This document shows, one piece after another, positions 13,212 to 39,812 of a stretch of 51,838 bases of DNA (position 1 is its first letter; every line of letters starts with the position of its first letter). The DNA is taken from NCBI GenBank assembly GCA_945861025.1, contig CAMASN010000019.1, positions 1 to 51,838 on the forward strand. Direction: 5' to 3'. Below the pieces are notes generated by a model. That model worked only from the letters and a program-made list of their open reading frames with translations, was not told where the DNA came from and searched no databases. The translations under genes and the position numbers were made by a program. Source of the DNA: Ferrithrix thermotolerans DSM 19514 (GTDB lineage: Bacteria > Actinomycetota > Acidimicrobiia > Acidimicrobiales > Ilumatobacteraceae).

Positions 13212-13883
13212 CTAAACAACGATTCGCATCAGCAGGTCACGGGCGTCGCGCTGCTCGTGGTGCTCGGGCATCGTGCGGTGTTTCCCTGCGGCGAATCGTT
13301 CGGCACTCCACAGCACTGCGTAGGCATCGAGCACGTCGTCGATGCGCGCAAATCGCAGCGGTATGGGGGTGATGGCGAAGTGAGATTCGACGAGTCGTGT
13401 TCGTTGTTCGATGCCAACCGATGTGTGCTTCGAGGCCAATGGCTCGTCGTTGTTCATCGCGAGGAATGAGCACTCGGGATGCATCTCCGCAACGCGGTGT
13501 TCGTGGTCTCGCGAGATAAACGCATCGACCTCTTTAATCTTCGCCACGATGTTCCACGCTTGTATTGAGATCGCTTTTCCAGTGGCCTCACGCGCGAGCG
13601 CGCATGCCTCTGAGTAGTCGGTTGCTTCGATGCACGCGCGAGGCGGAGTTGGAAACACAGTGCTGCCGCGCGGCCGCAAGTAGCGACGAGCTTCAAAATC
13701 GCTCTGTCGCGAAAAAATATTTGGAAGACCAATCGGCATGTCGATGCCGACGATGTCGAAGGTCGCGATGACGTTGGCGATCGATGGCTCGACATGCGCG
13801 CCGCCGCGACTTGCTACGACCCAGCCACCTTTGCAGCCGTCGACTCCGGCGCAGCGTTGCTGAGGCCGAACATTTCGAGACAT
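13212..13883 (-). CDS. DUF429 protein, predicted RNase H-like nuclease
   Basis: A 223-residue protein that opens with GVDGCKGGWVVA, the first acidic beta-hairpin of the RNase H-like DUF429 family, and later has FDIVGIDMPIGLP (second acidic residue), RGSTVFPTPPRACI and EMHPECSF, which are the family hallmarks. Activity has not been shown for most members, so the function is open. The ATG at 13883 lies inside the 3' end of the upstream GNAT gene (70-nt overlap); the conserved N-terminus starts ten codons in, so a shorter overlap would need a rare start. The two genes are probably co-transcribed. Confidence 0.82.
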   Translation of the reverse strand: MSRNVRPQQRCAGVDGCKGGWVVASRGGAHVEPSIANVIATFDIVGIDMPIGLPNIFSRQSDFEARRYLRPRGSTVFPTPPRACIEATDYSEACALAREATGKAISIQAWNIVAKIKEVDAFISRDHEHRVAEMHPECSFLAMNNDEPLASKHTSVGIEQRTRLVESHFAITPIPLRFARIDDVLDAYAVLWSAERFAAGKHRTMPEHHEQRDARDLLMRIVV

Positions 13884-14506
13884 GGTGTTAGGCCTTCGAT
13901 GCTGATGTCGTCACGGCGTTGAGTTTCCCATGCAGCCCGAGTGAGGCGATAACCGACCATCTCGCGGGGCTCACCGCGGCTGGTCATTCGGTGTCGTCCT
14001 TCGACCTCGTAACCCAGTTTGCGGGTAACGCCAAGTGACTGCGCGTTGTCCTCCCACGACCCAGTGAGGGCTCGGTCTGCCTCAAGTCCAGCGAAGATGA
14101 GGTGCAGTACTGCTGACCGCATCTCGGTACCCAAACCCTTATTTTGAAAGGGCTGGAGCAGATACGAGCCGGTGACAGCGCACCGCATAATGTTGAAGTT
14201 GTCTGCCGCCACTGATTGAGAGCCCACGATCAGATTGTCGGCCACGATGACAAAGTTGCACGTCCAAGACGTGGGCTCCCACAATGCGCGTTGGCTCCAA
14301 TGATGCTGCAGCGTGCGTCGTTGCTGGAGAGGCGCCGGCACGTCGGTCCACTCGATTGAGAACGGCATGTACGACGGATCATGCACGCCGTCCGAGACGG
14401 CGCGCTCCGCGATTTCGGCGACCTCATCGTCGGTGGGATAGCGCAGTTCGAGACGTGGTGTTCGCACATGTAAATCGAAAAGTGGCCAATGCTGAGTGAG
14501 CGACAT
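13814..14506 (-). CDS. GNAT family N-acetyltransferase (RimJ/RimL-like)
   Basis: A 230-residue acetyl-CoA dependent acetyltransferase of the RimJ/RimL/SpeG-like branch. It starts with TPRLELRYPTDDEVAEIAERA and has the acetyl-CoA binding P-loop in FQNKGLGTEMR (Q/RxxGxG). The segment NAQSLGVTRKLGYEVEGRHR is the usual C-terminal motif. It may acetylate a protein N-terminus or a small amine; the substrate cannot be read from sequence. About 20 extra C-terminal residues reach into the DUF429 gene. It is divergent from hup. Confidence 0.88.
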   Translation of the reverse strand: MSLTQHWPLFDLHVRTPRLELRYPTDDEVAEIAERAVSDGVHDPSYMPFSIEWTDVPAPLQQRRTLQHHWSQRALWEPTSWTCNFVIVADNLIVGSQSVAADNFNIMRCAVTGSYLLQPFQNKGLGTEMRSAVLHLIFAGLEADRALTGSWEDNAQSLGVTRKLGYEVEGRHRMTSRGEPREMVGYRLTRAAWETQRRDDISIEGLTPCLEMFGLSNAAPESTAAKVAGS

Positions 14507-14553
14507 GAACGCAGTGAATCGTGTTCGTCTTGCGCGATCAAGTGATTTCGATG

Positions 14554-14571
14554 TAGTTGCATTTGCAACTA
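14554..14571. promoter_or_regulatory. inverted repeat in the GNAT-hup divergent region
   Basis: A perfect 7-bp inverted repeat, TAGTTGC-ATTT-GCAACTA, sits between the GNAT and HU starts, about 80 bp before hup. It could be an operator for a dimeric regulator or a small hairpin. GATAAT at 14607-14612 is a plausible hup -10, placing the repeat just upstream of the promoter. Confidence 0.4.
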
Positions 14572-14652
14572 TCTAAATGCTTGTAATCACTGCGCGAAGC
14601 GTGTTCGATAATGCTTGCGTAACGCTCCGTTAACCGAGGAGGAAATTAGAAA

Positions 14653-14940
14653 ATGACAAAAGCAGAATTGATTGAAGCGGTTGCAACGAAAGCCGAAGTG
14701 ACGAAGGCAGATGCCGAGCGCACTCTTGCGGCTTTCTTCGACCAGGTAGTTGCTGTGGCAAAAAATGACGACAAAGTTGCTTGGCCGGGCTTCGGCTCGT
14801 TCAGCACAAGCAAGCGTAAAGCGCGCGTTGGTCGTAACCCACAGACCGGTGCTGAGGTGAAGATCGCAGCATCGACGAATATGAAGTTCACCTCGAGTTC
14901 AACACTCAAGGCTGCGCTGAATCCGAATAAGAAGAAGTAA
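14653..14940 (+). CDS. hup: HU family nucleoid DNA-binding protein
   Basis: A 95-residue HU core protein: helix-turn-helix dimerisation region (1-40), then beta-arms with the DNA-intercalating proline in GRNPQTG (P63) and a final helix ending in NKKK. HU bends and compacts DNA. Most mycobacterial and streptomycete relatives of the HupB type carry a long Lys/Ala/Pro-rich tail on the same chain; this one stops after the core. A GAGGAGG ribosome-binding site lies about 10 nt before the ATG. A repeat-rich basic mini-gene begins 28 bp downstream, and both end at one terminator. Confidence 0.96.
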   Translation: MTKAELIEAVATKAEVTKADAERTLAAFFDQVVAVAKNDDKVAWPGFGSFSTSKRKARVGRNPQTGAEVKIAASTNMKFTSSSTLKAALNPNKKK

Positions 14941-14968
14941 CCGAGAAATCAACAAGAAGGGAACAGAC

Positions 14969-15097
14969 GTGGCAGCAACAAAGAAGGCTCCGGCCAAGAA
15001 GGCAGCTCCTGCAAAGAAGGCAGCTCCTGCAAAGAAGGCTGCACCTGCAAAGAAGGCTGCACCTGCAAAGAAGGCTGCTCCAGCCAAGAAGAAGTAG
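14969..15097 (+). CDS. 42-aa lysine-rich PAKKAA-repeat protein (histone H1-like tail)
   Basis: A small reading frame from GTG 14969 to TAG 15097, with AAGGGA 6 nt before the start. It encodes MAATKK followed by six copies of APAKKA-type repeats and a final KKK: 15 lysines, the rest nearly all Ala and Pro. The repeat resembles the C-terminal tails of HupB and H1-like proteins, which bind DNA non-specifically. Synonymous codons vary between repeats, so the peptide rather than the DNA repeat seems preserved. It lies 28 bp after the HU core gene in the same orientation, before the shared terminator, which suggests a two-gene operon giving HU core and tail as separate proteins. Confidence 0.75.
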   Translation: MAATKKAPAKKAAPAKKAAPAKKAAPAKKAAPAKKAAPAKKK

Positions 15098-15126
15098 TCA
15101 ACGAACCATCCGGTTTGGAGCGCGTC

Positions 15127-15161
15127 GAACGGGGGGCTACGGCCTCCCGTTCGTGCTTTTT
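15127..15161 (+). terminator. rho-independent terminator with UACG tetraloop
   Basis: An 11-bp stem (GAACGGGGGGC with GCCTCCCGTTC, one G-U pair) closed by the very stable C(UACG)G tetraloop, followed by a GTGC spacer and five T. It ends the hup operon and faces the 3' end of the convergent PhyH gene. Confidence 0.9.
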
Positions 15162-15193
15162 CGGGTGAGTGAAGCGCCGCCTGAAATGGGCAT

Positions 15194-16054
15194 CTACGAG
15201 CTCGGCGGCTCGAACCCGAGACCCACTGGCACATCTTCGTAGTCGACAGTCCAGAGCCGTGTGGCGTCGCCGGGCACCGTGTTGTAACAGCGCCAGCCGA
15301 GTAACTGCTGGGCGCGTTCGGGCAAGTGCTTCACCGTGTCCCAATCGACCCCAAGCGGCCCCGCCTCTTCGGGCGTGAGCCAACCGAGCACGTACGACAA
15401 GTGCAAGCCGAACCGCCACTGATCGGCGGTCACGTTTGCGCCAGCGCCGTGCAATGCGCGACCGGTATAGATCATTCCGCTGCCTGCCGGCATAGTGGCC
15501 GCAACGGTGGCTGCTTCAGCGGGCCCAGCGGTGTAGTCGGGCCAGCTGTGGCTACCAGGCGCCACGCGCGTCGCGCCGACCTCTTCGGTGAAGTCGGTGA
15601 TCGCAAACATGCAACTCACTTGGACCTCAAAGCCATCGGGTCGGCTCATCGTGCGCCAGTTGTCGGCGTCTCGATGCAACCCCTGTGCCGCCTCGCCCGG
15701 GCCGATGATCATCATCTGGCCGGTGTTCATCCAGTAGCCCGTGCAACTTGGAAGCAGGAGTGCATCGGCCACGGCGAGCAGCGTTGGGTGCAGCAATATG
15801 TCGACGAAGGCAGTGCTGCGATGAGCGAGTCTCGTGAACCGTTTGGTGGTGTTTCCCCAGAAGTGCTGAACGTCGGAGTCGGCGCAGCGCGTGCCAGCCT
15901 GAAACGTGCTTGCGGCGAGTTCCATGTCGTGGCGAAATCGGGTAACGAGATCGGGCGAGAGCAGTTGATCGACGATGACTGCGCCGTCGGCATGCAACGT
16001 ATTAACAATTGTGTCTATCGGTGCGTCGTGAGCGACGTGCTGAAGTGAAGTCAT
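15194..16054 (-). CDS. phytanoyl-CoA dioxygenase family protein
   Basis: A 286-residue Fe(II)/2-oxoglutarate dependent oxygenase of the PhyH family. The iron ligands are H127 and D129 in GLHRDAD and H202 in RALHGAGANVT; R214 in WRFGLHLSY can hold 2-oxoglutarate. Members hydroxylate acyl-CoAs, amino acids such as proline or ectoine, or secondary metabolites; the substrate is unknown. It follows the PIG-L gene by 9 nt, so the two are probably expressed together. Confidence 0.87.
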   Translation of the reverse strand: MTSLQHVAHDAPIDTIVNTLHADGAVIVDQLLSPDLVTRFRHDMELAASTFQAGTRCADSDVQHFWGNTTKRFTRLAHRSTAFVDILLHPTLLAVADALLLPSCTGYWMNTGQMMIIGPGEAAQGLHRDADNWRTMSRPDGFEVQVSCMFAITDFTEEVGATRVAPGSHSWPDYTAGPAEAATVAATMPAGSGMIYTGRALHGAGANVTADQWRFGLHLSYVLGWLTPEEAGPLGVDWDTVKHLPERAQQLLGWRCYNTVPGDATRLWTVDYEDVPVGLGFEPPSS

Positions 16055-16063
16055 GATGTGGGC

Positions 16064-16843
16064 TCACAAATCTGTGATGAGCTTGAAAACCTCGGCTGAA
16101 CCGACATTGTGTGCGGCGCCGAGGCCTTCGAGTCGGCTGGAAATTCGTGTTCTGAATTGCGCAAGTTGATCGGTTGATGTTGCCTTCATTGTGCTTTCGA
16201 ATTGCGAAGCGTGGGCCTCGAGCGCATGGAGCTTGGTGTGCACGAATGCACTGACGTCCTCGAAGTGATCGGGGGCATCAGCCTCCCACAACAGCAAGCT
16301 GTGCGGACGGTGTGCGGCCAAGCCGTGCTCGCGAAAGAAGTGGGGATCTCGGGCCGCCACGATGGCATCGCACGCAAGCAAACCGGCATGGCGATGGTCG
16401 GGATGTAAGCGATAGCGCTTCCACGGATCGTGCCCTGCGATCACGGCGGGCTTCAGAGTGCGGATGCAGCGCGCGACCTCGCCGCGCAATGCAAGAGTGC
16501 TGTCGAGTTCGCCGTCGATCTGCTCGAGAAAAACAACTTCGCCGCGGTGCGAACCTGCAAGACGAAGCGCTGCTTCGCGTTGCTCAAGCTTGCGCGCTGC
16601 GATCAAAGCAGTGATGTCGGCGTCGGGGTTCCATGTTCCCTTTGAACCGTCGGTGAGCACAAGGTGATGTACCACGCACCCCTGTGACGCCCATTTCGCC
16701 AGCGTGGCTCCACAACCAAACTCGACATCGTCGGGATGCGCTCCGATAGCGAGCACCGAGCTGGGCGTGGCCATGTTCGATGTCCACGCGAAACTGCCTG
16801 ATGGCAATGTCAGGCTTGGTTGACCGGGTTCATTTGCAGCCAT
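16064..16843 (-). CDS. PIG-L family N-acetylglucosaminyl deacetylase-like protein
   Basis: A zinc-dependent deacetylase of the LmbE/PIG-L/MshB fold, 259 residues. It has the zinc motif AHPDD (H36, D38, D39), TDGSKGTWNPD, and the third ligand block HPDHRHAG. MshB and BshB act in mycothiol or bacillithiol synthesis; other members deacetylate sugars or antibiotics, and the sequence here does not decide. The ATG at 16843 has AAGGTG 8 nt before it but overlaps cofC by 34 nt; ATG 16774 would begin six residues before the conserved VLAIGAHPDD and is equally possible. Confidence 0.85.
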   Translation of the reverse strand: MAANEPGQPSLTLPSGSFAWTSNMATPSSVLAIGAHPDDVEFGCGATLAKWASQGCVVHHLVLTDGSKGTWNPDADITALIAARKLEQREAALRLAGSHRGEVVFLEQIDGELDSTLALRGEVARCIRTLKPAVIAGHDPWKRYRLHPDHRHAGLLACDAIVAARDPHFFREHGLAAHRPHSLLLWEADAPDHFEDVSAFVHTKLHALEAHASQFESTMKATSTDQLAQFRTRISSRLEGLGAAHNVGSAEVFKLITDL

Positions 16844-38529: not shown

Positions 38530-38696
38530 CTCATTGGTAGCAACGTGGTGGCGCTACTCGCCGACCCGTATGCCGTAAGGGTTTCTTGGACAAGTCTTTA
38601 CTCCAGCTAGGGCGAGCGCTGCCGATACATAAATTACAGTTCACCTGCGTTCGGCAATCAGTTGTTCGAATTCGCATCTATTTCAGGGAGGTATTC
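38530..38696 (+). other. divergent intergenic region upstream of the Asp/RG-tailed protein gene
   Basis: About 170 bp. The plus-strand gene has a strong ribosome-binding site (AGGGAGG, 38684-38691), so its promoter must lie within; AT-rich ATACATAAATTACAGT near 38625-38641 is the best candidate for a -10 region. An imperfect inverted repeat GCCACC/GGTGGC lies around 38526-38556. Confidence 0.35.
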
Positions 38697-39812
38697 ATGC
38701 GCAAGAGCGCACTCATCACCGCAAGCGCCTTCATTGGTCTTGCCTCACTCGTTGCCGGCGGCACAGCCGCTAGCGCCTCATCACATGCGCCGAAGGTGGC
38801 GGGCGCTTCAAGCTTCACTCTCAACTTGCTTGGCGCGCCCATCATCGTTGGCGTCACCACAGGAGTCGACGGCAGCTTGGCCAACGTCGACGTTGACCCA
38901 GCCGTTCTCGTAGCAACTGCTGCTCGCTACAACAAGGTTTCGTTTACCAACACCGCCGGCACTATGTCGGTGAGCGTTCGCGCCAACCACGGCGGCCAGA
39001 GCCTCACGGTTCGTTCATCGAGCTTGGCCGACCTTGCTGGAACAGCGAACGGCTGGAGCGGCGACGTATTTGGTAACGCCGTAACGAGCACAGTCACGTT
39101 CGACATCGTCGATGTTGCTGGAACGCCAACAATTACTGGTGTCACATGTCTTCCGTTGACTGCTCCAACATGCCAAGTGCGACCGACTGTTGTTGGCTAC
39201 GACGACGACGATGACGACGGCTCAAGCGCCTCGGCCTCGGTGGTGTTCACCAGCGATACTGGCGCGATCCGCACACTTCGAATTCGGGTTGGCATGCATA
39301 GCGAATACGGCACCACCCGAGCAGTCGTGCGCATGTCGCTCTCGAGGATCGCCGAAGCCGCTATTACTGGCGTCGGCCCTCATTCATGGACCGGCGTGTT
39401 GTGCGACGGCACCCCAGCAACGATCAACTACGAGGTTGCTGAGGGCGGCGCAATTTCGGTTACTCCAGATCCAGCGTTTACGGTGAAGGGCCACAAACGT
39501 AATGGTGTCAAGGTGATGTTCGCTTCAGGTGAGCAGGTTCGTATCAGCGCTCGCGGTACCGGACTTACTGCTCAGGTGCGCCTAGAGGTGCGTCAGCGCT
39601 GTGAAAAGAGTCTTCCAACCATTAACAGCATCGCTCCAGACTCAAGCATCGTCAGCGGCGATGACTTCGACGATGACGGCGATCGTTCGGACGACGACGA
39701 CGACGACGACGATGACATCGATGATGACGACGACGATGACGACGACGATCACGGCCGTGGCCGTGGTCGTGGTCGTGGCCGTGGCAACGATGATGCCAAT
39801 GGTCGTGGCTGA
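38697..39812 (+). CDS. exported repeat protein with poly-aspartate and arginine-glycine tail
   Basis: A 371-residue secreted protein of unknown family. Residues 1-28 are a Sec signal peptide with a signal peptidase I site after ASA. Two beta-rich repeats of about 110 residues follow (about 41-160 and 178-300), each with a pattern of SL-x-x-(I/L)A, W-(S/T)G, an (I/V)-T-F/Y-(D/E)V strand and a cysteine pair, joined by a linker with six aspartates (169-174). The C-terminus (321-371) has two runs of nine and ten aspartates, then HGRGRGRGRGRG and a short NDDANGRG end. A calcium- or mineral-binding, or surface-charge role is conceivable but unproven. No membrane anchor is seen. Confidence 0.85.
   Translation: MRKSALITASAFIGLASLVAGGTAASASSHAPKVAGASSFTLNLLGAPIIVGVTTGVDGSLANVDVDPAVLVATAARYNKVSFTNTAGTMSVSVRANHGGQSLTVRSSSLADLAGTANGWSGDVFGNAVTSTVTFDIVDVAGTPTITGVTCLPLTAPTCQVRPTVVGYDDDDDDGSSASASVVFTSDTGAIRTLRIRVGMHSEYGTTRAVVRMSLSRIAEAAITGVGPHSWTGVLCDGTPATINYEVAEGGAISVTPDPAFTVKGHKRNGVKVMFASGEQVRISARGTGLTAQVRLEVRQRCEKSLPTINSIAPDSSIVSGDDFDDDGDRSDDDDDDDDDIDDDDDDDDDDHGRGRGRGRGRGNDDANGRG

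Follow-up and report, generated by a model that had tools for sequence, protein, structure and literature searches.

A Lys/Ala/Pro-repeat tail encoded as a separate gene beside HU in a family of Acidimicrobiia

In HupB/MDP1 of mycobacteria and in HupS-type HU of Streptomyces, an HU core and a PAKK-type tail are found at one locus, as passages of PMC5676037 and PMC5683647 describe, and the tail is fused to the core. The stretch of DNA considered here (51,838 nucleotides, referred to as the window) carries the same two parts at one locus. In contrast to the fused proteins, the tail has a gene of its own, which begins 28 nt past the HU stop codon. This arrangement raises the question of whether the tail is a protein in its own right, and, if it is, whether it works together with HU. 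A separate gene implies that the two products either cooperate though not covalently joined or act independently.

The HU ORF encodes a complete HU domain of the HU/IHF family. It matches PF00216 (Bac_DNA_binding) with an E-value of 1.2e-29, protein residues 1–90 covering profile positions 1–90 of 90, and resembles solved HU/IHF chains (for example, 2o97_B, E 1.5e-16). The chain ends in ALNPNKKK, followed by a TAA stop codon at 14938–14940. It has no Lys/Ala/Pro tail and so differs from HupB-type proteins, in which the tail belongs to the same chain as the core. It is the single HU match at E ≤ 0.001 in the window's genome, which is 95.6% complete. Its best named relatives come from actinobacterial MAGs, several titled Ilumatobacteraceae or Acidimicrobiaceae and some lake-derived by name, which points to an Ilumatobacteraceae-like actinobacterium, probably from fresh water. 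A pattern scan of 14450–15300 revealed no sigma-70-type promoter, and the window contains no tRNA and no Rfam family at the gathering score.

Two neighbours flank the unit. The divergent GNAT acetyltransferase gene has a match in 10 of the 210 loci that were fetched (7 after merging of duplicate records), every one of the window's genus; because it is confined in this way, it is placed outside the conserved unit and ruled out as a dedicated acetylase of HU or the tail belonging to that unit. Convergent to the unit, at 16064–16843, lies a gene for a PIG-L/LmbE-like protein (named by eye), and sequence similar to it occurs in 70 of the 210 fetched loci at E ≤ 1e-6, duplicates included. Elsewhere in the window, at 38586–39812, a 408-aa ORF has a long stretch of Asp towards its end and, after it, Gly-Arg repeats (39659–39785).

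The coordinates and frames of the ORFs confirm the initial annotation, which had described an HU gene ending after its core and followed by a free-standing ORF of PAKKAA repeats with its own AAGGGA site. The tail reads MAATKKAPAKK, then five AAPAKK units and a final K. With 15 Lys, 19 Ala, and 6 Pro among its residues, a calculated charge of +14.5 and a pI of 11.2, it has an H1-like composition, namely Lys/Ala/Pro-rich repeats without acidic residues. The repeat length of about 18 bp given in the initial annotation was recovered as the period of the array. Two ORFs on the minus strand overlap the array (14899–15234 and 14949–15419) and are taken as mirror frames of the repeat. The view that one terminator closes the unit also held. 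Although terminator-like sites found by pattern scan number 2 against a shuffle mean of 1.3, a count that by itself is not above chance, the segment 15098–15170 folds at z −4.55, and none of 200 shuffles was equally stable.

Table 1. Coordinates of the HU gene, the tail gene, and adjoining features in the window.
Feature	Position	Strand	Remarks
GNAT acetyltransferase gene	13814-14506	minus	divergent from HU
HU core gene	14653..14940	+	ORF list; 95 aa; PF00216 match
Ribosome-site-like motif AAGGGA	14957..14962	+	6 nt 5' of tail GTG
Separate tail gene, 42 aa, GTG start	14969..15097	+	ORF list; frame differs from HU
18-bp tandem array encoding tail repeats	14987..15091	+	period 18, 5.8 copies
Intrinsic terminator stem, 12 bp	15126..15153	+	T-rich stretch 3' of stem

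A search of relatives for intergenic ORFs after HU, suggested with the initial annotation, indicates that the separate tail ORF is not a local accident and is linked to HU across the family. The family-level set comprised 86 HU loci, 36 from genomes of the window's family (f1) and 50 from named contigs (L031–L080), which are without a family code and were grouped with f1 by an HU identity of at least 62%. These loci gave 74 distinct HU DNA sequences. Five contigs (L007, L016, L024, L061, L080) have less than 60 nt of sequence downstream of HU, which leaves 69 of the 74 readable there. In 62 of these 69, a separate Lys/Ala/Pro ORF without interruption lies after HU, complete in 49 and cut by the contig end in 13. 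In four more, read by eye, the tail is broken or partly readable: the frame breaks within the array in L002 (identical in sequence to L031), a run of N lies within the tail in L056, the tail start falls at the contig end in L068, and L038 has a normal tail start and then departs from the pattern close to the contig end. L002, L031, L038, L056, and L068 were assigned to the separate class by hand. The remaining three (L021, L025, L067) have no tail, and all of them retain HU and the convergent PIG-L/LmbE-like neighbour; hence, the tail is dispensable somewhere in the family. The same layout is present in genomes assembled as single contigs (G020, G173, and G042; loci L022, L114, and L119), with tails of 130, 138, and 170 aa. 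It also occurs in four public MAG records titled Bifidobacterium breve (L053, L055, L065, L073; HU 68–74% identical to the window's); with an HU this similar and the same ORF after it, the titles look wrong.

The tails share a composition and vary in length. Complete tails (n=49) are 22–170 aa long with a median of 77, so array length differs between relatives, the level at which the comparison stands because the collections hold one genome per species. None of the 49 contains Asp or Glu, and Lys plus Arg make up 27–65% of residues (median 50%). With the tail start placed at whichever start codon lies closest to the first run of Lys, 32 of the 62 uninterrupted tails begin with ATG, 29 with GTG, and one with TTG, and the gap from the HU stop is 4–69 nt (median 28). 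A site with at least five of six matches to AAGGAG precedes 48 of the 62 tails. Random 14-mers reach this level in 6.4% of cases and shuffled versions of these sites in 25.9%, and the HU starts at these loci do so in 34 of 62.

Free-standing or H1-like Lys-rich repeat proteins are known from other bacteria. For example, Chlamydia Hc2 likewise stands free and consists of Lys-rich repeats, and it differs in size according to how many of them it has, as stated in PMC2848022; the histone H1-like proteins of Bordetella and Burkholderia are related to Hc2. Two longer tails from relatives matched these profiles weakly: those of L119 and L131 gave E-values of 4.2e-5 and 1.3e-4 against Hc2, and of 1.7e-10 and 2.2e-5 against the Burkholderia H1-like model. 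The curated cut-offs of PF07382 and NF038053 were not reached by either (24.2 bits against 40 and 41.5 against 80 for L119; 22.6 against 40 and 24.8 against 80 for L131), and no Pfam or NCBIfam model matched the window's tail at E ≤ 0.1. The likeness rests on composition with scores below cut-off, and, unlike those proteins, the tail gene described here is linked to HU. AlgP of Pseudomonas aeruginosa is likewise a DNA-binding protein with an H1-like part made of KPAA repeats, according to PMC9239181; there, the repeats belong to a larger protein, in which they occupy the C-terminal 154 aa, whereas here the tail stands free.

The tail gene itself is well supported, and its likely action can be outlined from sequence and from related proteins. 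It appears probable, and it is the reading that we favour, that the locus is a two-gene unit which supplies an HU core together with a trans-acting, H1-like DNA-condensing peptide. The unit would make the HU core and, as a small protein of its own, a disordered polycationic Lys/Ala/Pro-repeat tail. The tail probably has a ribosome site of its own, from which it would be translated on an mRNA shared with HU. The tail would neutralise and coat DNA with no sequence specificity, and beside HU it would condense the nucleoid, as an in-trans counterpart of the role that the HupB tail plays in cis. Its charge and dose may be set by the array length and the separate start. A partnership on DNA is the best reading because of the linkage to HU, which extends over the family and beyond, and because of the fused forms found among relatives. 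To this extent, the initial annotation's proposal of a condensing peptide acting in trans is partly supported.

Work on mycobacteria bears on this proposal in two ways. A passage of PMC5676037 describes the C-terminal domain of HupB as indispensable for nucleoid association, and one of PMC5974015 states that compaction by MDP1 depends on the tail. In work cited in PMC5974015, the HU domain or the tail of MDP1 alone bound DNA weakly, which, as far as that citation goes, speaks against a free tail being equivalent to an attached one.

The chief rival reading is that the tail is made and mainly acts on another polyanion, such as polyphosphate granules, RNA, or ribosomes, or serves as a general charge buffer, its adjacency to HU reflecting co-expression only. 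Other proteins encoded by these genomes do bear Lys/Ala/Pro tails. In the window's own genome, a phasin-like ORF (G000:C1:164845-164946; L278:1243-1875, minus) has a C-terminal tail of PAKKA/PVKKA repeats, a layout that presumably recalls mycobacterial HBHA. In relatives, such tails are found on a DksA-like ORF (N-terminal) and a TopA-like ORF (near the C-terminus), both named by eye (L280, L282). In addition, AlgP with its KPAA repeats associates with polyphosphate granules, as PMC9239181 reports. Against this reading, the ORF remains beside HU throughout the family, and some relatives have HU and tail fused in one chain. We regard it as unlikely, with a real chance of being right.

Less probable still is that the array yields no useful protein and is either the decaying remnant of a once-fused tail or a functional DNA repeat. 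The tail-less relatives, together with one frame-broken and one deviating array among 66 loci showing a tail start, point in this direction, whereas the complete frames free of acidic residues, the frequent motif before the tail start, and the pattern of codon changes point away from it. The initial annotation had taken codon differences among the repeats as a sign of a selected peptide, and the comparison agrees with it: when the units of the window's array are compared at an 18-nt shift, 7 of 7 mismatches fall at third codon positions (13 of 20 over the whole tail ORF including its non-repeat ends). Four of the first 20 codons differ between the window and its closest relative, and all four differences are synonymous. 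Among the 62 family-level tails, 21 pass a 75% self-match, and in these 356 of 660 mismatches between units are at third positions, an excess to which no probability is attached since repeats are not independent. Codon changes of this type suggest a coding sequence.

The closest relative (L002, HU 97% identical) nevertheless shows what had been named as evidence against a peptide, a frame broken by an indel not divisible by three. Its array of 331 nt is one above a multiple of three, the frame is lost in mid-array, and the array ends like the window's. This break may be an assembly error, as the sequence comes from a MAG scaffold that contains internal exact repeats as long as 81 nt. L002 and L038 are 2 departures from the pattern among the 66 loci, and they count against the peptide. 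The tail gene is a place where assemblies tend to break: of 74 contigs, 20 stop in the first 400 nt downstream of HU and 1 within 400 nt upstream. The window's tail is itself short for the family, and its array may be an assembly artefact, a shortening, despite a longest internal exact repeat of 35 nt.

It is very improbable that the split is only apparent, with a frameshift or readthrough of the stop yielding a single HU-tail protein. The window's tail frame is open from 14921, within HU's end, so that a +1 shift could join the two, but gap remainders of 0, 1, and 2 are spread about evenly (20, 18, and 24 of 62 loci), a stop interrupts the tail frame between the HU stop and the tail start in 16 of the 62, and the tails have ribosome-site-like motifs of their own. 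Because gaps occur in all three frames and stops intervene, one event cannot serve all loci; family-wide fusion by either route is excluded on these grounds, and the separation of the two ORFs appears conserved with no conserved route to a fused product.

Beyond the family, the class Acidimicrobiia holds separate, fused, fused-plus-separate, and tail-less HU loci. In the class survey, 295 genomes were searched and 270 matched; part of the loci were fetched and sorted by rule as separate, fused, both, or none, where fused means at least 20 aa with at least 15% Lys plus Arg after the core (L204 was assigned fused by hand, as was L209 for the tree). The fetched loci represent 52 family codes, and 19 of these include one or more loci with a separate tail ORF: in 12 codes it lies beside a tail-less HU, and in 7 the neighbouring HU carries a fused tail as well. 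In a second family cluster, a tail-less HU is followed by an ORF beginning MVTVPPAK or similar. A relaxed ORF search of the loci called tail-less returned three short, chance-like matches (L095, L158, L197). A search for a tail elsewhere in the tail-less genomes G012 and G014 gave no match, and the same search also missed the HU-linked tails of G020 and G042. In family code f43, two close HU loci differ, one having a separate tail (cut by the contig end) and the other none (L138 and L143). A check for second HU genes covered eight stretches, three of which contain a readable HU and the rest little or nothing. A small genome of the window's family has a second, distant HU bearing a short fused tail (L214), and in another genome the tail-like end alone is readable (L210 and L215).

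Outside the class, 246 genomes of the phylum were searched and 160 matched; 55 loci were examined, 54 with a readable HU. None of these 54 has a separate tail ORF, 9 have a fused tail, and 45 have none, counts that give no estimate of the frequency of fused HU because families are shared and the query favours HU paralogues like itself. The initial premise that the tail is usually fused in HupB-type actinobacterial HU is thus weaker than stated: fused tails exist, and they are the smaller part of this sample.

A tree of 165 HU cores, one per row (160 of the class and 5 from elsewhere) and 90 columns includes 80 separate, 54 tail-less (the 5 outsiders included), 18 fused, 8 both, and 5 unknown; the tail labels require 24 changes, compared with a mean of 72.4 when shuffled. 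The direction and number of conversions are not claimed since the alignment has 90 columns and 77 of 162 inner branches are open. Two fused rows, L023 and the long-branched L124, come from other families and sit inside the group holding the window's family, possibly owing to transfer, independent fusion, or misplacement. Since eight rows have both kinds of tail, the separate gene is not simply a replacement of the fused one. As a tentative and broader proposal, Acidimicrobiia may have a two-component chromatin, an HU core and a linker-histone-like trans peptide. The peptide's own start site would tune its dose and its repeat number its charge, each separately, and evolution may have converted fused, split, and double forms into one another several times.

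Judging by titles and the starts of abstracts, none of the matches listed in a literature search (bioRxiv and most subscription journals lie outside its scope) describes a separate tail gene beside HU. We therefore file the locus as known parts in an arrangement not found described and conserved over a family. According to a passage of PMC5683647, the clade HU_acti_0 is the only one to which HU of Acidimicrobiia belongs, and the same source describes the Streptomyces member of that clade as lacking a C-terminal extension. Set against that account, the class survey finds both separate and fused tails, and the picture of Acidimicrobiia HU as simply tail-less changes. The tail of mycobacterial HU is part of one chain, and a family that has two genes instead is a natural experiment on the importance of the covalent link. 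In this group of probably freshwater actinobacteria, it becomes simple to test if the tail needs attachment to HU for its function.
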